Positions 41,767 through 50,884 of a stretch of 50,884 nucleotides of DNA are shown here, in pieces. Under the pieces are notes generated by a model. It was not told the origin of the DNA. It saw nothing but the letters and a program-made list of their open reading frames with translations, and made no database searches. Position 1 is the stretch's first letter; every line of letters starts with the position of its first letter. Position numbers and translations under genes: made by a program. The stretch covers positions 1-50,884 of the forward strand of contig WLEB01000004.1 of NCBI GenBank assembly GCA_009704505.1. The letters run 5' to 3'. This DNA is from Actinomycetota bacterium (lineage in GTDB: Bacteria > Actinomycetota > Actinomycetes > Nanopelagicales > Nanopelagicaceae).

Positions 41767-43113
41767 CTAAGCGGTTGGAGTTGATTCCTCTGGCGTTGCA
41801 GCTGCGTCAGCCACTTTGGCTTCGGCCTTTTGCTTCTTATGTGCCATAAAGCGTTCTTTAGCAAGTGAGTATTGTGCTTCCCACTCTTCGCGCTGGCTCT
41901 CATAGCCTGGCTTCCACTCCTGCGAATCTGCATCAAAGCCTTCAGGGTAAATGAAGTTACCTGCAGCATCGTATCTGGCTGACATTCCGTACTGAGAAGG
42001 ATCGAATGCTTCGATCTCAATTTCGTGACCTTCATTAGCTTGCTTTAGAGATAATGAAATTCGACGACGCTCTAGATCGATATCAATAATCTTTACGAAA
42101 AGTTCATCATCGACTTGAACAACCTGCTCTGGGATTTCAACATGGCGCTCTGCCAACTCTGAAATGTGAACAAGTCCTTCGATTCCTTCATGCACGCGAA
42201 TGAATGCGCCGAATGGAACGAGTTTTGTTACAACACCAGGAACTACCTGATTGATTGTGTGTGTTCGAGCAAATGCTTGCCAAGGATCTTCTTGAGTTGC
42301 CTTGAGAGAAAGTGAAACGCGTTCACGCTCAAAGTCCACTTCTAGAACTTCGACTGTAACTTCGTCCCCAACCTCAACAACTTCACCTGGGTGATCAATG
42401 TGCTTCCATGAAAGCTCTGATACGTGAACGAGGCCATCAACTCCACCTAGGTCAACGAATGCGCCGAAGTTAACAATTGATGAGATAACACCTGAGCGCA
42501 CTTGACCCTTTTCTAGTTGATTGAGGAAAGTTGTGCGTGACTCGGATTGAGTCTGTTCCAAAAATGCGCGGCGTGAAAGAACAACGTTGTTACGGTTCTT
42601 ATCAAGTTCGATAATGCGTGCTTCGACCTGCTTTCCAATGTATGGCGTTAGGTCGCGGACACGGCGCATTTCTACAAGTGAAGCAGGTAAGAATCCGCGA
42701 AGACCAATGTCTACGATTAGGCCACCTTTAACAACTTCAATAACTGTTCCAATAACAACTTCATCACGCTCTTTCTTGCCTTCAATATCTCCCCATGCGC
42801 GTTCATACTGTGCGCGCTTCTTTGAGAGAATGAGTCGACCCTCTTTATCTTCTTTTTGAAGAACGAGTGCCTCAATAATTTCACCGACTTTAACGATTGA
42901 ATTTGGATCTGCATCATGGCGAATAGAAAGCTCGCGTGATGGAATTACACCTTCGGTCTTGTAACCGATATCGACAAGAACCTCGTCGCGTCCTACTTGA
43001 ACAACTGCTCCTGAAACTAAGTCGCCGTCATTAAAATTTCTGATTGTGCCTTCGATTGCGGCAAGAAAATCTTCTGCTGATCCAATATCGTTTACTGCGA
43101 TTTGCGTTGTCAA
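41767..43113 (-). CDS. rpsA: 30S ribosomal protein S1
   Basis: mRNA-binding ribosomal protein. The 448 residues hold four S1 (OB-fold) domains at about 32-100, 118-183, 204-272 and 289-358, with motifs VLVDIGYKTEGVIP, GLIVDIGLRGFLPASL, FGAFVDLGGVDGLVHVSELS and PFGAFIRVHEGIEGLVHIS. A charged and Ala-rich tail follows. The start is TTG at 43113, with GGAG 5 nt upstream. The protein frame (TQIAVNDIGSAEDFLAAI) shows no alternative Met. It has its own promoter and leader and a strong terminator. Confidence 0.96.
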   Translation of the reverse strand: MTTQIAVNDIGSAEDFLAAIEGTIRNFNDGDLVSGAVVQVGRDEVLVDIGYKTEGVIPSRELSIRHDADPNSIVKVGEIIEALVLQKEDKEGRLILSKKRAQYERAWGDIEGKKERDEVVIGTVIEVVKGGLIVDIGLRGFLPASLVEMRRVRDLTPYIGKQVEARIIELDKNRNNVVLSRRAFLEQTQSESRTTFLNQLEKGQVRSGVISSIVNFGAFVDLGGVDGLVHVSELSWKHIDHPGEVVEVGDEVTVEVLEVDFERERVSLSLKATQEDPWQAFARTHTINQVVPGVVTKLVPFGAFIRVHEGIEGLVHISELAERHVEIPEQVVQVDDELFVKIIDIDLERRRISLSLKQANEGHEIEIEAFDPSQYGMSARYDAAGNFIYPEGFDADSQEWKPGYESQREEWEAQYSLAKERFMAHKKQKAEAKVADAAATPEESTPTA

Positions 43114-43167
43114 GTGAGCTCCGTAGGGATAGAAAGTAGTAGTTCCCGCTTTCGCGGCTGAAGGGCA

Positions 43168-43197
43168 AGAGTACGGTTCGTGCGCTCACCAGGGCAA
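43168..43197 (-). promoter_or_regulatory. rpsA promoter
   Basis: TTGCCC (43192-43197) and TACTCT (43168-43173) on the minus strand with an 18-bp spacer. The predicted leader of about 50 nt contains CCGC-GAAA-GCGG... read on the minus strand as a short hairpin with a GAAA tetraloop (43146-43157). This could be a regulatory structure for S1. Confidence 0.45.
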
Positions 43198-43260
43198 ATT
43201 CGGATTACTTTTTGAGCGTGAGAAGAAGGCCAAAACTTTCCAGAATGTGGCTAGAACTAT

Positions 43261-45891
43261 CTAATGTGCAGCCTCGTGCCATGTCAGACCTAATCCAGCA
43301 TTAACATCTAACGGAGCCTTCAATGGATAGGCCGCTCCCATTTCCTTTTTAACAAGGGCTGTAATGATTTCCTCTTCACCAGGTGAAACCTCAACAATTA
43401 GCTCATCATGGATTTGAAGGAGTAATCGAGATTTCAATTTTTGTTTTTCAATTGCGTTATTAACGTTGAGCATTGCGATTTTGATTATGTCGGCTGCAGA
43501 TCCTTGAATGGGTGCATTCAATGCCATTCTCTCGGCGACTTCACGTCGAGCACGATTATCATTCATCAGATCAGGCAGATAACGCCTTCTTCCCATGATT
43601 GTCTCTGTGTATCCAACTTTGCGGGCATCTTCAACCACGGTTTTCAAATAATCTCTAATTCCACCAAAACGTTCAAAGTATCTATCCATTAAATCCTGTG
43701 CAGCAGGAGGTGTGATATCTAACTGCGCAGATAAGCCATAAGAAGAAAGCCCATAGGCAAGACCGTAAGACATCGCTTTTATCTGACGTCGCATTTCTGG
43801 ATCAACCTCACTCGGCTTAACTCCAAAAATCTGCGAAGCAATCGTTGCGTGTAAATCTTCACCAGAAGTAAATGCCGCCAATAGTTTGGAATCATTTGAA
43901 AGGTGGGCCATGATTCGCATTTCGATTTGGCTGTAGTCAGCAGTCAAGAGTGAGGAATAGCCTTTACCTGCAATAAAACAGTTTCTAATTCTTCGACCCT
44001 CCTCAGTACGAACAGGAATATTCTGCAAATTGGGTCCAGTCGATGAAAGTCTTCCTGTAGCTGCCACGGTTTGGGCAAAGTGTGTATGAATTCGCCCATC
44101 TGCTGCGATCTCGGCAATTAGACCTTCCACTGTTGTTCCTAGTTTCTTTGTCTCTCGTATTCGAAGCAATGAAGTCAAAACAGGATGACCTGTTTTCTGA
44201 TGAAGCCAGTCCAGACTTTCCGCATCAGTAGTAAAACCTGTTTTTATTTTCTTAGTCTTCGGAAGTTTCAGCTCATCAAAGAGGACTACCTGTAATTGCT
44301 TAGGTGAGGCCACATTGAATTCATGACCAACACTTTGGTGGGCAGCTTTCGTCTCTCGATCAACTTCGCCTTGGAAATAATCTGCCAAAACTTCGAGCTC
44401 TTTTTTATTGACTGCAATTCCAACATTTTCCATACGGGCCAGTAATGCGGCCACAGGCATCTCCATTGTAAGAAAAAGCTCCATAAGTCCGCGGTCGTTG
44501 AGTTCTTCGGTAAGTGCCTGCCTGAGATCAAATAACGCAGATGCACTTGTGATCAGATATAACTGATTTGTTGATTGATCTATTATGGAAGCATCTGACC
44601 AGCGCTGGGTAATATCTATGAACTCTTGGGTTCGAACTCCAGGATTTACAAGATAGGCAGCCAGCGCAACATCAAAAACAACTCCTGACAAACCATTAAT
44701 TCGTGCCAAAGATTTCGCGTCGTGTGCAATCTTTTTGATATCAGGATCTTGAACCCAATCCCCCATCTGATCTGATTCAACAACTAGTACCTCTTTGGAG
44801 GAAATTGCAACGGCATACCGCACAATTTCTTCATCTACAATTTCAAATGAGATTGCGATCTCTCCATTGTGTTGTGCAATTCTTGTAGAGGTTTGCTCGG
44901 CTGTTAAAACTTCATGCGAAACAGCCTGTGAATTTTTATTTAATACCTCGGATTCGACTGAATTATCCAAAGTTTTTGTCTCGCCACCTCCATCTGGCGT
45001 GATCAAAATAGGCTTCATTCGCTCTTTTAGTGTCTTGAACTCTAGGGTTTTAAACAAGGGATCCACTGATGCTTCTGCGACTCCGGCCCAGGCAAGAGAT
45101 TGGATAGTAAATTCGATTGGAACAGAGCTAACTAACTGCGTGAGTTCTCTATTTCGTTCTACATCAGTGACACAGTTTTTTAGAGATTGACCGGCTTTGC
45201 CACCTAGGTCATCAACGTGTGCAAGCAGTTGCTTTAAGGATCCATATTCAATGATCCATTTTGCAGCTGTCTTTTCTCCAACTCCTGGAACAGAGGGCAA
45301 GTTATCGCTTGGATCACCGCGTAGAGCGGCAAAATCTGGATACTGTTCTGGAGTCATTCCGTATTTTTCCAGAAGCGCCGGCGCGTTCATGCGAACAAGA
45401 TCGCTTACACCTCGTTTTGGATATAGAACTGTTGTTTTCTCGCTAATCAATTGAAAAGAATCTCGATCTCCCGTGCAAATGAGTACTTGTGCCCCCTCTT
45501 TCTCGGCAGTCTTAGTAATCGTTGCAATGATGTCATCGGCTTCATAGCCTTGAATTTCAAAGGTTGAGATTCCGAAAGATTCAACAAGTTGATGCAAGTA
45601 ACTCATCTGCGATCGGAATTCATCTGGGGTTTTGGCTCGATTAGCTTTGTATTCTGGAAAAATCTCCGAGCGAAACGTTGTGCGAGAAACATCAAATGCA
45701 ACTGCCACATGTGTTGGTTTTTCTGAGCTGAGCAAGGAAAGAAGCATTGTTGCAAAGCCATAGATGGCGTTGGTGTGCTGACCAGTGGCTGTCGTGAAGT
45801 TTTCAGCCGGTAGTGCAAAAAATGCTCTATAGGCCATCGAGTGTCCGTCAATGAGGAGAACTCTTGCATCGGACTTATTGACGGCAGGCAT
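43261..45891 (-). CDS. polA: DNA polymerase I
   Basis: Repair and Okazaki-fragment polymerase of 876 residues from the ATG at 45891 (MPAVNKSDARVLLIDGHS). Starts at 45900 (ATG) or 45912 (TTG) are also in frame. The 5'-nuclease domain covers about 1-295. The middle 3'-exonuclease-like domain lacks the acidic DxE motif, so proofreading is probably absent. The polymerase domain has motif A DYSQIEMR, motif B RRQIKAMSYGLAYGLSSYGL and motif C IHDELIVE. The O-helix aromatic residue is Tyr (MSYG). A TATCTA box upstream implies a very short mRNA leader. Confidence 0.96.
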   Translation of the reverse strand: MPAVNKSDARVLLIDGHSMAYRAFFALPAENFTTATGQHTNAIYGFATMLLSLLSSEKPTHVAVAFDVSRTTFRSEIFPEYKANRAKTPDEFRSQMSYLHQLVESFGISTFEIQGYEADDIIATITKTAEKEGAQVLICTGDRDSFQLISEKTTVLYPKRGVSDLVRMNAPALLEKYGMTPEQYPDFAALRGDPSDNLPSVPGVGEKTAAKWIIEYGSLKQLLAHVDDLGGKAGQSLKNCVTDVERNRELTQLVSSVPIEFTIQSLAWAGVAEASVDPLFKTLEFKTLKERMKPILITPDGGGETKTLDNSVESEVLNKNSQAVSHEVLTAEQTSTRIAQHNGEIAISFEIVDEEIVRYAVAISSKEVLVVESDQMGDWVQDPDIKKIAHDAKSLARINGLSGVVFDVALAAYLVNPGVRTQEFIDITQRWSDASIIDQSTNQLYLITSASALFDLRQALTEELNDRGLMELFLTMEMPVAALLARMENVGIAVNKKELEVLADYFQGEVDRETKAAHQSVGHEFNVASPKQLQVVLFDELKLPKTKKIKTGFTTDAESLDWLHQKTGHPVLTSLLRIRETKKLGTTVEGLIAEIAADGRIHTHFAQTVAATGRLSSTGPNLQNIPVRTEEGRRIRNCFIAGKGYSSLLTADYSQIEMRIMAHLSNDSKLLAAFTSGEDLHATIASQIFGVKPSEVDPEMRRQIKAMSYGLAYGLSSYGLSAQLDITPPAAQDLMDRYFERFGGIRDYLKTVVEDARKVGYTETIMGRRRYLPDLMNDNRARREVAERMALNAPIQGSAADIIKIAMLNVNNAIEKQKLKSRLLLQIHDELIVEVSPGEEEIITALVKKEMGAAYPLKAPLDVNAGLGLTWHEAAH

Positions 45892-45914
45892 GGCCCCCAT
45901 CCTAGATAACAAGT

Positions 45915-45920
45915 TATGAT
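45915..45920 (+). promoter_or_regulatory. Thioesterase -10 element (leaderless geometry)
   Basis: TATGAT, a near-consensus -10, ending 6 nt before the ATG at 45927. No Shine-Dalgarno and no good -35. It lies in the short divergent region shared with polA. Confidence 0.5.
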
Positions 45921-45926
45921 TGTCTT

Positions 45927-46337
45927 ATGACGCAACAAGATTTACTGGCAATAATTAAAGAGCGAGGCAATGGCGATCTTGGTATCAAAATGGGTATCGA
46001 GATTATTGAAGCATCGGCCCAACGGTTAGTCGCAACAATGCCAGTTGAGGGAAACACTCAACCTGCTGGACTTCTCCATGGAGGAGCCAGTGTTGTTTTG
46101 GCCGAATCTTTAGGATCTATTGGGTCGCAGATTCATGCCGGTGCCAATCGCAAAGTAGTAGGTGTTGATATCAATGCCACTCATCATCGCTCGGCTCGCT
46201 CTGGTCTTATCACAGCCGTTGCAACGCCGATATCACTTGGCAAAACCCTGTGCTCCTACGAAATTGTGATCACAAATGAGGCTGGCGAAAGAATCTGCAC
46301 CGCCCGCATTACCTGCCTGATCCTTGCCGAGGTCTAG
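45927..46337 (+). CDS. PaaI/YdiI-type hotdog-fold thioesterase
   Basis: Small acyl-CoA thioesterase of 136 residues. The hotdog signature is visible as MPVEGNTQPAGLLHGGASVV near residues 40-58, including the HGG loop after the catalytic acidic region, and the following helix carries LAESLGS with the candidate catalytic Glu. The VGVDINATHHRSARSG strand is near 80-95. Such enzymes clear aromatic or menaquinone-pathway acyl-CoAs; the substrate cannot be told. The neighbourhood next to polA is common in actinobacteria. Predicted leaderless. Confidence 0.88.
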   Translation: MTQQDLLAIIKERGNGDLGIKMGIEIIEASAQRLVATMPVEGNTQPAGLLHGGASVVLAESLGSIGSQIHAGANRKVVGVDINATHHRSARSGLITAVATPISLGKTLCSYEIVITNEAGERICTARITCLILAEV

Positions 46338-46454
46338 GTCCGTTAGTTAAGGTTAGCCGCCTAGCCCGCTGACCAACCGGGTGCCAGCTTGAAACGAAGA
46401 ACCAGCCTGATGCATCCAAATCGCGATGCACGTTAACTAGATGTGGAGCGCGAC
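46338..46454 (+). other. liv operon upstream region with inverted repeat
   Basis: About 115 bp between the thioesterase and livH. It contains a perfect 6-bp inverted repeat TGCATC-N8-GATGCA (46411-46430), which could be an operator or the thioesterase 3' hairpin (no U-run follows). A TAACT-type AT-rich element (46433-46439) is a weak -10 candidate. A GGAG at 46445-46448 precedes TTG 46455 and supports that start. Confidence 0.35.
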
Positions 46455-47750
46455 TTGAATTTTGCGAGAAGGAAGAGCAGCGCTCGCTTCATCCTTTTAT
46501 TGATCACCATGTTAAGTGCAGCGGCGGGAATATCTCTGGTTGCAGCGCCTGCACACGCCGCTGATCCAGCTACAAAACTCTATGGAATTGTCACGAGTTC
46601 TACAGAACAACCACTTGCTGGAGTTGGAATTTCGATTGAAGGTCCAGATGGCTTTAGAGCTGAAGTAGAGACCGATTCGGCTGGCGCATGGGAAGTGCTC
46701 GTTCCAACAAAGGGAACCTATAGCGCAACAATTAATGAAGGTGATCTACCTTCAGGCCAAGCGCTTACTGACCCAACAAAAGGAACTGTTAAAGCAAATA
46801 TTTTTATGCCTGGGGTGGAACTTCGACTTCTCTTTCCTATAGGACCAGGAGTTGCAAAAGCCACCATGCTGGAACGTTCGGCGCAGTTAACTGTTGATGG
46901 CTTAATCCTTGGATTGATCATTGCTCTAGCAGCTCTGGGATTGAACTTAATCTTTGGAACAACTGGGCTAACTAACTTTGCTCATGGTGAGATTTTAACT
47001 TTTGCAGGACTTCTTACTTATTACTTCAGTGCAATAGCAAAACTGCCGGTTCTTGTAGCAGCACCAATAGCTGTTCTGCTCAGTGCCTTCGTATCAGGAT
47101 TCTTGCAAGATAGATATCTCTGGAAACCTCTCCGTAAAAGAGGCACCGGGTTAATTGCAATGCTGGTTGTCTCAATCGGTTTTGCAATCTTCTTACGTTA
47201 TTTCTTCCTCTTCCTCTTTGGTGGAGACACACGTCAACTTCCACAGTACGCCGGTCAAGCAGGGCTCGAACTTGGACTAGTTAACATCACACCTAAATCA
47301 ATTCTTACAACTGTTATTGGAATCGGATTTATTGTATTTGCAACGTTATGGCTGCTTCGTACCCGAATGGGTAAGGCCAGTAGAGCAGTTGCAGATAACC
47401 CAGCTTTAGCTTCTGCATCAGGAATTGATGTTCAAAAAGTGATCCGCGCCGTTTGGATCTTAGGTGCAGCACTTGCCGGATATGCAGGTGTCATTGTTAC
47501 CGTCAACCAAGGGGTCAGCTTTCTAATGGGACAGGACATGCTGCTGCTTATATTTGCAGCCGTTACTTTAGGTGGATTAGGTACAGCCAATGGGGCTCTT
47601 GTTGGCTCCCTGATTATTGGCCTTTTCGTTCAACTTTCCACGCTATTTATTCCTACAGAATTGAAGTATGTGGGTGCCTTGATTGTTTTGATCTTGATTT
47701 TAATCGTTCGGCCGCAGGGCATTCTGGGCCGGAAAGAGAGGATTGGCTAA
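46455..47750 (+). CDS. livH: Branched-chain amino acid ABC permease (LivH) with N-terminal extracytoplasmic domain
   Basis: Permease of a LivH-type amino-acid importer with an unusual front half. From the upstream GTG at 46443 the frame is 435 residues; GGAG spacing favours TTG at 46455 (431 residues). The protein begins with a signal peptide (basic ARRKSSAR, hydrophobic core, APAHAAD cleavage site). A beta-sandwich of the carboxypeptidase-regulatory type follows at about 45-115 (LYGIVTSSTEQPLAGVGISI). The LivH permease starts near 140 (GLNLIFGTTGLTNFAHGE), with the ATPase-contact loop VADNPALASASGIDV. It is followed directly by livM. Confidence 0.9.
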   Translation: MNFARRKSSARFILLLITMLSAAAGISLVAAPAHAADPATKLYGIVTSSTEQPLAGVGISIEGPDGFRAEVETDSAGAWEVLVPTKGTYSATINEGDLPSGQALTDPTKGTVKANIFMPGVELRLLFPIGPGVAKATMLERSAQLTVDGLILGLIIALAALGLNLIFGTTGLTNFAHGEILTFAGLLTYYFSAIAKLPVLVAAPIAVLLSAFVSGFLQDRYLWKPLRKRGTGLIAMLVVSIGFAIFLRYFFLFLFGGDTRQLPQYAGQAGLELGLVNITPKSILTTVIGIGFIVFATLWLLRTRMGKASRAVADNPALASASGIDVQKVIRAVWILGAALAGYAGVIVTVNQGVSFLMGQDMLLLIFAAVTLGGLGTANGALVGSLIIGLFVQLSTLFIPTELKYVGALIVLILILIVRPQGILGRKERIG

Positions 47751-48746
47751 ATGGACATTCTCTTTATTATTCAACAGACATTAAGCGCAACCCTTGGAGT
47801 TAATGCAATTATCTTTGCACTAGCTGCAATTGGTCTGAATATGCACTTTGGATACACAGGCCTTCTTAACTTCGGTCAGGCTGGCTTTCTAGCGATCGGT
47901 GCTTACAGTGTGGCCGTTCCGGTTATCACCTTTGGGCTTTCACTATGGCTTGCTCTATTAATTGGTATTTTCAATTCGATTCTCTTCGCACTTCTTTTAG
48001 GAGTTCCCACTTTAAGGTTGCGTGCAGATTACCTAGCGATCGTAACTATTGCCGCTGCAGAAATCGTTCGCCAGATCGCCCGCTCTGCCACATTTAATGA
48101 CTCATTGGGTGGATCTGATGGAATCACTGGAAAATTCGGTAAGGAGTTCTTCGATCTAAATCCCTTTAAAACAGGTCTAGATACTCCAATTCTTCGCTTC
48201 AATGGAAACGATCTTTGGGTCGTAATTACTGGTTGGGTTCTTGTAGCGATAATTACTTTCATTATGTGGATCATGGTCAACTCCCCTTGGGGTCGCGTCA
48301 TGCGCGCTATCCGTGAGGACGAAGATGCAGTTCGCTCATTAGGCAAAAACGTTTACCTATACAAGATGCAATCACTAATCATCGGTGGTGTCATCGGATC
48401 TATTGCTGGCTTTGTCTATGCCTTATCGCGTCAGTCAGTCCAACCAGATAACTATGGAACAGCGTTAACCTTCTTTGCTTACACCGTACTAATCCTTGGA
48501 GGCGCAGCAAGAGTCTTTGCGCCAATCGTGGGTGCAATGATTTTCTGGTTCCTGATCGTATTTATTGAACAAGTTCTTCGTGCAGGAGTAACTTCTAATT
48601 TAATTCCAGATTGGCTCATTGGAGTCAACCAAGTAGGCCAAATTCGATTCATGCTCATGGGTCTTGGATTGATGCTCCTAATGATCTTTAGACCACAGGG
48701 CATATTTGGCGATAAGAAGGAGTTGGCACTAGATGCAAAAGCATAA
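47751..48746 (+). CDS. livM: Branched-chain amino acid ABC permease (LivM)
   Basis: Second permease subunit, 331 residues with about eight to nine predicted helices. Family landmarks are GLNMHFGYTGLLNFGQAGF near residues 26-44, GVPTLRLRADYLAIVTIAAAE near 85, and the ATPase-contact loop AIREDEDAVRSLGKNV near 184. The ATG follows the livH stop without any gap (TAAATG). The final GLMLLMIFRPQGIFG is typical. The 3' end overlaps livG by 14 bp. Confidence 0.95.
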   Translation: MDILFIIQQTLSATLGVNAIIFALAAIGLNMHFGYTGLLNFGQAGFLAIGAYSVAVPVITFGLSLWLALLIGIFNSILFALLLGVPTLRLRADYLAIVTIAAAEIVRQIARSATFNDSLGGSDGITGKFGKEFFDLNPFKTGLDTPILRFNGNDLWVVITGWVLVAIITFIMWIMVNSPWGRVMRAIREDEDAVRSLGKNVYLYKMQSLIIGGVIGSIAGFVYALSRQSVQPDNYGTALTFFAYTVLILGGAARVFAPIVGAMIFWFLIVFIEQVLRAGVTSNLIPDWLIGVNQVGQIRFMLMGLGLMLLMIFRPQGIFGDKKELALDAKA

Positions 48747-49587
48747 TTCCGGTGCGAGCTTCGCCTTAACAACGGCTCAAACACCAGGATCTTCAAAGCC
48801 GGATCCAATTTTGATCGCAGATAAAATCATGCGCCAGTTCGGTGGTTTAACTGCCGTGAATGTGGACCATGTTGAAATTCAACGTGGATCTATTACCGCA
48901 CTTATCGGACCAAACGGTGCGGGAAAAACTACGTTCTTTAATCTGCTGACCGGCTATGACTCTCCAAACTCGGGAACATGGAGTTTTAACGGCAAATCAC
49001 TCAACGGTATTCCGCCACATAAAGTGGCAAGACTTGGAATGGTGCGCACATTTCAGTTAACCAAGGCTCTCTATCGCTTAACGGTAATTGAGAACATGTT
49101 GCTTGGTGCCAGAGCACAAAAGGGTGAATCAGTTCTTCTCTCAGTTTTCCCTTGGATCTGGCGCGCGCAAGAGGCTGCCATCCGTGTAAAAGCCACTTCT
49201 ATCCTTACAAACTTTAAACTTCTAGAAAAGCAGAATGATTTTGCTGCCGCTTTATCTGGAGGACAGAGAAAACTTTTAGAGATGGCAAGGGCGCTGATGG
49301 TAGAGCCAGAGATGGTGATGCTTGACGAACCGATGGCTGGTGTAAACCCTGCACTCAAGCAATCGCTCTTGGAACACATCAAAGAACTCCGCAGTGAAGG
49401 AAAGACAGTTCTTTTCGTTGAACACGATATGGATATGGTTCATGAGATTAGTGATTGGGTAATTGTCATGGCACAGGGCCAGATCATTGCCGAAGGTACT
49501 CCAGCAACAGTAATGGGAAATGCTCAAGTTATTGAAGCCTACTTGGGTGCTCACCACGATACAGATCTATCGAGTGAAGGAGCCTAA
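48733..49587 (+). CDS. livG: Branched-chain amino acid ABC ATPase (LivG)
   Basis: ATP-binding subunit, 284 residues. Walker A GPNGAGKTTFFNLLTG near residues 57-72, signature LSGGQRKLLEMARAL near 174, Walker B VMLDEPMAGVNP near 195, and switch histidine VEHDMDMV near 229. The ATPase domain is preceded by about 30 low-complexity residues. The ATG at 48733 lies inside the livM 3' end behind AAGGAG (10 nt spacing). No alternative start is available before the domain. Confidence 0.95.
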   Translation: MQKHNSGASFALTTAQTPGSSKPDPILIADKIMRQFGGLTAVNVDHVEIQRGSITALIGPNGAGKTTFFNLLTGYDSPNSGTWSFNGKSLNGIPPHKVARLGMVRTFQLTKALYRLTVIENMLLGARAQKGESVLLSVFPWIWRAQEAAIRVKATSILTNFKLLEKQNDFAAALSGGQRKLLEMARALMVEPEMVMLDEPMAGVNPALKQSLLEHIKELRSEGKTVLFVEHDMDMVHEISDWVIVMAQGQIIAEGTPATVMGNAQVIEAYLGAHHDTDLSSEGA

Positions 49588-49590
49588 GTA

Positions 49591-50328
49591 ATGAGTTCAT
49601 CTGAGACTACAGCATTGGTTTCTGCAAAGGATTTAGTAGCTGGCTACTTACCAGGAATCAATATTCTTAATGGATGTAATTTGTATGCCAATGAAGGCGA
49701 ACTCGTTGGAATTATTGGTCCTAACGGTGCTGGTAAGTCAACGCTACTCAAAGCGTTATTTGGACTTGTAAAGATACGCGAAGGCAATGTAACTCTATCT
49801 GGTGAAGAGATTACCAATATGAGAGCAGACCAGTTAGTAGCTAGAGGCATTGGTTTTGTTCCTCAAAGCAACAACGTTTTCCCATCTTTAACAATTGAAG
49901 AAAACCTTCAGATGGGTGCATTCCAATCTCCTGCTAAGTTCTCGGAACGCTTTGAATTTGTCACTGATCTTTTCCCAACTCTTGGAACGCGCCGCAAGCA
50001 GAGAGCTGGATCTTTATCTGGTGGAGAGCGTCAGATGGTGGCTATGGGTAGAGCTTTGATGATGAATCCTTCTGTACTGCTACTGGATGAACCTAGTGCT
50101 GGCCTCTCCCCTGCTCTTCAGGATGAAGTTTTTGTTCGCGTTCGTGAGATTAATAAGATTGGCGTTACTGTCATTATGGTTGAGCAAAATGCACGCAGAT
50201 GCTTGCAGATCGTTGATCGAGGTTATGTTTTGGATCAAGGTAAGAATGCCTACGAAGGCACCGGAAAGTCCTTATCAACTGATCCTAAAGTTATTGAACT
50301 CTATTTAGGCACCCTGGCCAAGAAGTAA
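49591..50328 (+). CDS. livF: Branched-chain amino acid ABC ATPase (LivF)
   Basis: Second ATP-binding subunit, 245 residues. Walker A GPNGAGKSTLLKALFG near residues 45-60, signature LSGGERQMVAMGRALM near 142, Walker B LLLDEPSAGLSP near 165, and the LivF-typical VEQNARRCLQI near 199. It begins 3 bp after livG and ends the operon, with a strong terminator about 57 bp downstream. Confidence 0.96.
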   Translation: MSSSETTALVSAKDLVAGYLPGINILNGCNLYANEGELVGIIGPNGAGKSTLLKALFGLVKIREGNVTLSGEEITNMRADQLVARGIGFVPQSNNVFPSLTIEENLQMGAFQSPAKFSERFEFVTDLFPTLGTRRKQRAGSLSGGERQMVAMGRALMMNPSVLLLDEPSAGLSPALQDEVFVRVREINKIGVTVIMVEQNARRCLQIVDRGYVLDQGKNAYEGTGKSLSTDPKVIELYLGTLAKK

Positions 50329-50384
50329 CTGTTACTCATACTCTGAGTTCTTTAACACCCTTAAACCTTTAAAACCTTTGAGAA

Positions 50385-50422
50385 TAAGAAAGGCCCGCCG
50401 GATAACCGGCGGGCCTTTCTTA
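50385..50422. terminator. Bidirectional intrinsic terminator between livF and the binding-protein gene
   Basis: Perfect 17-bp stem (TAAGAAAGGCCCGCCGG paired with its complement) closing a four-base loop. The A-rich left arm and T-rich right arm (CCTTTCTTA) make it usable from both strands. It sits between convergent genes ending at 50328 and 50439. Confidence 0.92.
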
Positions 50423-50438
50423 CTACGTTTTTAGCTAA

Positions 50439-50884
50439 TTACTCGCCCGCTGGCACATCACCAGAGATGAACTCTGCTGGAAGTGCTACGTACTTGTCAT
50501 TTGCTTCGTAAACATACACACCCATTGTTGCGTATGAAGGATCGCCATTGTCTGCGAACTCAATTGGACCAGATACACCGTCATAGTCGATGTCTGTTCC
50601 TTCTGCGATGAGAGCCTTGCAATCAGCAAAGGTTGTGCACTTTGTGCCATCCTTTGAAACAGATACTAGGTTGTCACGGATGGTCTTACCATCTGTTGCT
50701 CCACCCTGCTCTGCTGCAAGTGCGATCAAAACTACTGCGTCGTATGACTCAGCAGCATATGAGTAGTCTGTCAAAGCTGGATCTACTGAAAGTAGACGCT
50801 TCTGTAGCTCTCCATCAGCAAGTACGCCAGGAAGTGTTCCCTTAACGCCCTTCATGATTCCTGCAGGTAGATCCTTGTAAGCAC
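50439..50884 (-). CDS. ABC transporter substrate-binding protein, partial (Leu/Ile/Val-binding type)
   Basis: The C-terminal 148 or so codons of a periplasmic-binding-protein type 1 lipoprotein or secreted receptor. The frame stays open through the window edge and no true start is visible. Features include YAAESYDAVVLIALAAEQGG, the paired cysteines in GTKCTTFADCKAL typical of amino-acid receptors, and the C-terminal YATMGVYVYEANDKYVALP. It is the likely receptor for the neighbouring livHMGF transporter but lies on the opposite strand, converging on it. Function is by family resemblance. Confidence 0.88.
   Translation of the reverse strand, partial: AYKDLPAGIMKGVKGTLPGVLADGELQKRLLSVDPALTDYSYAAESYDAVVLIALAAEQGGATDGKTIRDNLVSVSKDGTKCTTFADCKALIAEGTDIDYDGVSGPIEFADNGDPSYATMGVYVYEANDKYVALPAEFISGDVPAGE

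Follow-up and report, generated by a model that had tools for sequence, protein, structure and literature searches.

The 50,884-nucleotide stretch of actinobacterial DNA analysed here, referred to as the window, encodes a LivH-type permease in which a signal peptide and a beta-sandwich domain are predicted ahead of the membrane core. The extension lies in one frame with the permease, is conserved and constrained among relatives, has a predicted fold of its own, stands in a liv gene neighbourhood and belongs to one clade among the rows sampled. According to the explanation proposed, a cleavable Sec signal peptide would take the prealbumin-like beta-sandwich of about 95 residues across the membrane, signal peptidase would then free the N-terminus of the domain, and a short linker would leave it close to where the first core helix meets the outer face of the membrane. 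The domain would serve as an accessory module where the transporter opens to the outside, next to the docking site of the binding protein, aiding either assembly of the complex or seating of the lipid-anchored binding protein. A probability of about 0.55 was assigned to this explanation as a whole (LivH with its N-terminus outside, an exported beta-sandwich and an accessory role in assembly or seating); the assembly/docking role taken by itself is assumed and is put forward tentatively.

The fused livH gene occupies positions 46443–47750 of the forward strand and forms a single uninterrupted frame from GTG 46443 (435 aa) or TTG 46455 (431 aa) to the stop codon at 47748–47750, which confirmed that the frame is open throughout, as the first-pass annotation had stated. 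The long extension that it had noticed ahead of the first membrane helix was also found. With window residue 148 aligned to residue 10 of E. coli LivH, the window protein has 147 residues (143 from TTG) where the E. coli protein has 9. TTG 46455, the start taken in the first-pass annotation, is probably better than GTG 46443, because a Shine-Dalgarno-like GGAG (46445–46448, forward strand), seen in the sequence, precedes it with a 6-nt spacer and because the start block GATGTGGAGCGCGACTTGAATTTTGC is identical between the window and L063, its closest relative in the start-region comparison, the flanking sequence being less alike. Residue numbers given here follow the GTG numbering. A five-codon ATG frame (MWSAT, stop TGA) at 46441–46458, identical in L063, overlaps TTG 46455 and may be due to chance or to translational coupling. 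Upstream of the livH start and the liv operon, an inverted repeat TGCATC-N8-GATGCA was noticed at 46411–46430; it is present in L063 with an altered loop, was not found at the same place in the other relatives compared, and is a possible operator. At gathering scores, no Rfam family matched the window.

The extension would not be made at all if translation began near Met142 and yielded an ordinary LivH, and an in-frame ATG is indeed present at residue 142, as it is in L063 and L065. The objection that a downstream start might be used was checked by the codon column, in which only 5 of 44 fused relatives, the window included, have a start-like codon (ATG, GTG or TTG). The upstream part moreover carries a conserved signal peptide, a confident fold and a dN/dS of 0.08–0.22. 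The internal start was rejected on the codon count and the dN/dS values, and the reading can hardly be credited.

The first part of the extension is a predicted Sec-type signal peptide (46455–46559, forward strand), the end of which reads ...LVAAPAHA followed by AD, with cleavage expected after APAHA at residue 39. A basic start, a hydrophobic core and an AxA motif were all found, and helix 13–31 of the AlphaFold2 model corresponds to this segment. A home-made script, used in place of SignalP and applied to 66 relatives including the window, detected a hydrophobic core in all 66, K/R ahead of it in 65 and AxA behind it in 63. The three rows in which the script missed AxA were L087, L098 and L131; for L098 the script chose the wrong segment, and its own sequence shows AHA. 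These counts bear out the fused signal peptide claimed at first pass. Because AxA stands behind the nine core helices, taken as a control, in only 144 of 594 cases (0–39 of 66 per helix), the signal peptide is presumably cleaved rather than kept as a helix.

The domain itself (46563–46844, forward strand; residues 41–134) is a prealbumin-like beta-sandwich with a predicted extracytoplasmic location, and it is joined to the first core helix by a linker (46845–46883, forward strand; residues 135–147) of 13 residues, the median among relatives being 14 and the maximum 50. The CarboxypepD_reg profile PF13620 matched residues 46–98 with an E-value of 7.2e-6 and 26.7 bits for the whole protein and with 30.5 bits for the domain alone, both below the gathering score of 32.3. 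The same profile matched 63 of 64 relatives at E<=0.01 (best E 1.6e-12), and at the same threshold SdrD_B matched 37 and SpaA 33 of the 64. In the AlphaFold2 model, built with 66 sequences (mean pLDDT 91), strands were placed at residues 44–128, with a pLDDT of about 90–98 for the block, followed by a weaker joint at residues 131–140 (pLDDT 71) and permease helices from residue 142. The separate beta-sandwich of the carboxypeptidase-regulatory kind that had been proposed from the letters is therefore supported by the predicted structure. A structural comparison of residues ~41–138 by VIA-align revealed matches across the whole predicted domain to SdrD B, CnaB, pilins and transthyretin-like proteins (Z 9–11), with an rmsd of 2.2–3.1 over 79–96 residues for many entries; Foldseek listed the same kinds of fold. 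The sequence search of the PDB with the fused protein gave no match at E<=1. With the A2 profile, an SdrD chain was found at 2.6e-8 and nine other entries at 0.0024 or worse, none of the ten being a LivH, and E. coli LivH as the query had a single match at E 0.4.

Conservation within the domain was limited. A Gly is the only invariant residue; with the nearly invariant columns counted as well, the list runs G, G, G, Y, L, P and F, with Leu and Pro adjoining. No conserved Lys or Asn column of the kind found in CnaB isopeptide domains was present in the domain alignment, and CnaB isopeptide chemistry was rejected on this ground. Judged by the model and the alignment, the domain looks prealbumin-like, without isopeptide or enzyme residues. 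Its identity to the window's domain was 21–45% among relatives, indicating rapid divergence. The domain dN/dS was nevertheless 0.08–0.22 in six pairs, so it is under purifying selection; the LivH core gave 0.012–0.047 in the five pairs that allowed its calculation, and in these the domain value was about 3–7 times that of the core. Chance or artefact as the origin of the extension is very unlikely, since PF13620 recurs in nearly all relatives, the domain dN/dS is low and the predicted fold is a confident one.

The same data bear on a domain that binds substrate, as a built-in trap or a second binding protein. The first-pass annotation had listed a substrate trap among its suggestions, and nothing in favour of it was found beyond the inferred place of the domain at the importer mouth. 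The listed structural matches of residues 41–138 are prealbumin-like rather than binding-protein folds of the kind fused in GlnPQ, although absence from such a list excludes nothing. The Gly, Tyr, Leu, Pro and Phe that make up the conserved columns, together with a binding-protein gene next door, argue further against this function, which we regard as very improbable.

Many of the best structural matches are domains of surface proteins and pilins, and with the SdrD_B and SpaA matches they favour an envelope-contact module, which would touch a wall polymer or another surface protein in the manner of the CnaB/SdrD-B repeats of Gram-positive surface proteins. A single domain on a short linker would, however, reach little past the membrane, and no conserved Lys/Asn column of the CnaB isopeptide kind was seen. 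In 60 of the 64 rows, moreover, the domain segment is acidic (net charge -6 in the window, median -10; extra residues ahead of the domain are counted in some rows), which does not point to binding of acidic wall polymers. Envelope contact was considered unlikely and was ranked third, after a role in assembly or seating and after the stability role discussed below.

The permease core (46884–47747, forward strand; residues 148–435) was recognized by PF02653 on residues 150–420 with an E-value of 2.4e-35 and 122.4 bits, well above the gathering cut-off of 26.8. It scored 107.4 of the 379 bits needed for the NCBIfam LivH equivalog NF008011 and 122.7 of the 250.3 bits needed for UrtB TIGR03409. Judged by these profiles, the core is LivH-like and is not an E. 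coli LivH equivalog. The PF02653 match starts at residue 150 in the window protein, at residue 12 in E. coli LivH and at residue 45 in RbsC. BLASTP gave an alignment of E. coli LivH with RbsC that was confined to the C-terminal half, so profiles were compared instead, and hhalign paired window residue 161 with RbsC residue 57. According to Selengut et al. (2010; PMC3098086), LivH and UrtB are without the first helix of RbsC.

Since a LivH-type permease lacks the first helix of RbsC and BtuC, the N-terminus of LivH should lie outside the membrane. Helix counting in the model from residues 308–325, which we take to be the cytoplasmic coupling segment, again placed the N-terminus outside. In line with the positive-inside rule, the predicted inner loops contained 13.1 K+R per 100 aa versus 5.0 in the outer loops (66 sequences), with two of the five inner loops nearly free of positive charge (0.0 and 0.3 K+R per 100). 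The missing helix, the helix count and the charge distribution thus point to the location suggested by the first-pass annotation, outside the membrane, on the face that receives the binding protein. A short tail can cross the membrane alone, while a folded domain of 95 residues needs a signal peptide; an outside N-terminus would therefore explain why one is present. This topology, as the account of the signal peptide, is the main addition to the earlier reading.

The fused gene is followed on the forward strand by livM (47751–48746), encoding the permease partner, and by the ATPase genes livG (48733–49587) and livF (49591–50328), both identified by profile matches. The 3' part of a substrate-binding protein gene (50439–50884, reverse strand) lies convergently and is open to the contig end, which cuts it. 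The matching region of a relative, L176, contains a full-length, lipobox-bearing homologue of this protein, 99% identical over the part compared, and the set of five genes, livHMGF and the binding protein, was found in the window with the full binding protein taken from L176. PF02653 starts at residue 17 of the window LivM, which has about 16 residues ahead of the core; in the E. coli LivM profile this part is longer by about 100. The window LivM, like LivH, seems from this comparison to be without the first helix, and both permease subunits may have their N-termini outside. The complex is assumed, from gene names alone, to be an ABC importer of branched-chain (hydrophobic) amino acids.

Among the named loci (the best 80 of 574), in counts where some loci end at a contig or locus edge, livM, livG and livF follow livH in 75 of 80 and a convergent binding-protein gene lies downstream in 60 of 80; the latter was also present in all six family regions. 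A hotdog thioesterase gene (TIGR00369; 45927–46337, forward strand) is the upstream neighbour of the liv operon. A thioesterase gene on the same strand precedes livH in 6/6 family regions and in 20 of the same best 80 named loci, and to our knowledge it has no link to amino-acid uptake. The order polA, thioesterase, livHMGF and convergent binding protein (window 41767–50884) was seen in all six family regions and in part in other Actinomycetota. Either the thioesterase or a divergent polA was found upstream, oriented as expected, in 24 of the best 80 of 574 named loci, both being present in 6/6 family regions; the polA–thioesterase neighbourhood was rejected as a general feature on this count.

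If the domain were a docking platform, as first suggested, it and the binding protein would be expected to change together. A mirror-tree analysis was performed on 43 of the 65 named A2 rows, those in which every gene was complete and a lipobox was present, using partial correlations of distances. For the domain and the binding protein, controlled for the LivH core, LivM, LivG and LivF, the partial correlation was -0.06, with 417 of 500 permutations as high. The values for the domain against LivM, LivG and LivF in the same 43 loci were 0.14 (1/500 permutations as high), 0.13 (12/500) and 0.10 (20/500), respectively. The test is a weak one, and no sign of a specific contact between domain and binding protein was seen in it. 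A docking platform is thus possible, with no support from coevolution. The domain would be unnecessary as a tether, because the binding protein has its own lipobox, detected in 50 of 52 complete frames.

The distribution of the fusion was examined in several draws of genomes. With the domain and first helix as the query, and matches through the domain counted by hand, at least 40 genomes, the window's own among them, proved to carry the domain in a draw of 296 from the phylum, one row being cut by a contig edge and the list running down to weak matches. Full-length matches came from 13 of the 61 family-draw genomes and 8 of the 101 order-draw genomes (own genome in both, five genomes common to both), so the fused LivH is a minority feature within the family; the other matches listed in these draws were unfused paralogues with up to 38% identity. 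The scan of named records returned at least 597 stretches, of which 574 were confirmed and the best 80 kept. All these 80 matches begin in the first 33 of the 152 query residues and therefore extend into the domain. Only two of the 80 titles are not actinobacterial; the others include Curtobacterium, Microbacterium, Arthrobacter, Geodermatophilus, Nonomuraea, Pseudonocardia, Ilumatobacter and Thermobifida as well as several Candidatus Nanopelagicales.

A close LivH core (E<=1e-40) was detected in 76 of 197 genomes of the class draw. Among the 78 listed matches, 75 lay in a frame open for 429 residues or more, a 38% paralogue in G561 included; the remaining three frames had 336 (G128), 299 (G436) and 163 residues (a second place in G505, near a contig end). 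Because open frames are weak evidence by themselves in GC-rich DNA, a search with the domain profile was run. It revealed the domain in all 29 of the best other class loci (L183–L211) and in none of 33 unfused loci, namely G128, G436, the window genome's own paralogue and 30 family paralogues. The search for the same fusion in other actinobacterial LivH proteins, advised at first pass, was thus successful, and the fusion is no oddity of the window gene, being widespread in one actinobacterial LivH clade.

A tree of 54 LivH-like cores was built by a quick search, with some long branches. Fused LivHs were represented by the window, 33 of the 65 named A2 rows and five family members; beside them stood G128, 12 unfused family paralogues, E. 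coli LivH and a UrtB. All 39 fused rows fell, together with G128, into one clade (SH-aLRT 98), which supports a single origin of fused LivH against the rows sampled, the unfused actinobacterial LivHs among them being G128 and the family paralogues. The fused LivH is an old design common to many actinobacteria. In a 67-core tree of fused LivH, L101 (titled Dehalococcoidia) and L143 (titled Acidobacteria) grouped with actinobacterial cores and so give no proof of fused LivH outside the phylum; misbinned contigs or transfer are possible. The LivH of L079, a record titled as a Bifidobacterium breve MAG, grouped with the window's family, and this title looks wrong.

G128 (L214) is nested inside the fused clade and is without the beta-sandwich. 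Its protein has a signal-peptide-like start, ...MLVPALALVLVMVPAISARAQ, ending in AxA (ARA), after which the core follows almost at once. This sequence is most simply read as the product of a domain loss that spared the signal peptide, in keeping with a topogenic requirement for the latter. The G128 protein also favours an explanation in which the signal peptide is the part that matters, forcing insertion of the first core helix with its N-terminus outside, and the beta-sandwich is mainly a passenger for folding or stability. The domain dN/dS of about 3–7 times the core value in five pairs and the linker lengths of 13 to 50 residues agree with such a passenger. Retention of the domain in 29 of 29 class loci under purifying selection, however, goes beyond what a neutral passenger needs, and E. 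coli LivH, if its N-terminus is outside, gets by without a signal peptide, on about 11 residues. The passenger was ranked second and is possible, if rather improbable. Against the accessory module, which was ranked first, stand G128, which does without the domain, and the absence of a nameable conserved non-structural residue in this fast-diverging domain.

Importer permeases of the LivH fold are usually described as bare membrane subunits. LivH of the E. coli LivFGHMJ system (308 aa; HAAT family, PF02653) has the same core as the window protein (34% identity over 310 columns) and the same set of partner genes, with about 11 residues ahead of the core and no extra domain. The type II importer permeases RbsC, BtuC and HmuU share the permease fold, and residues 144–424 of the predicted model matched HmuU, and likewise BtuC, with a VIA-align Z of 16. 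In RbsC, 44 residues precede the shared core, enough for a first helix, which LivH and UrtB lack. The fold of window residues 41–138 is common to CarboxypepD_reg, SdrD_B, CnaB and transthyretin-like domains; the window domain lacks the isopeptide Lys/Asn columns of CnaB and sits on an importer permease, in contrast to the wall-anchored stalks or peptidases of its fold relatives. GlnPQ and OpuA are ABC importers with substrate-binding domains fused to the permease polypeptide, and an extracytoplasmic domain fused to a permease is likewise predicted for the window LivH. The window LivH differs from GlnPQ and OpuA in that its fused domain seems to be prealbumin-like and the binding protein, a lipoprotein, is encoded separately.

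The same design principle was met in a long UrtB of 537 aa from Sinorhizobium meliloti pSymA (L212, 1709–3322). This protein has, by eye, a signal-peptide-like start, then an extra N-terminal region of about 215 residues and the permease core from residue ~245. The extra region gave a weak HEAT_2 match (E 0.0041) below the cut-off, looks helical by eye and seems unrelated to the beta-sandwich of the window. Because the two extra regions look different, those of LivH and of the one UrtB examined are read as separate gains. A Klebsiella plasmid UrtB of 308 aa has no extra N-terminal region; among actinobacteria, UrtB was found in 8 of 119 genomes, with open frames of 293–351 aa in seven and 788 in one. 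A literature search, from which subscription papers were mostly outside the scope, gave no description of such a LivH/HAAT permease or of a long UrtB, although the architecture can probably be read from the Pfam database by its users. LivH/UrtB-type permeases with an exposed N-terminus may have gained a signal-peptide-led outer domain at least twice. Such domains would then form a new class of importer element, of general occurrence and with a part in regulation or assembly; this generalization is doubtful at present. If it is true, outer N-terminal domains would act on the permease and not as binding proteins. A whole actinobacterial clade with a predicted outward LivH domain would be a natural marker of the outside N-terminus of LivH and UrtB, and this clade, together with G128 and the UrtB parallel, makes the role of the outer N-terminal domain testable.
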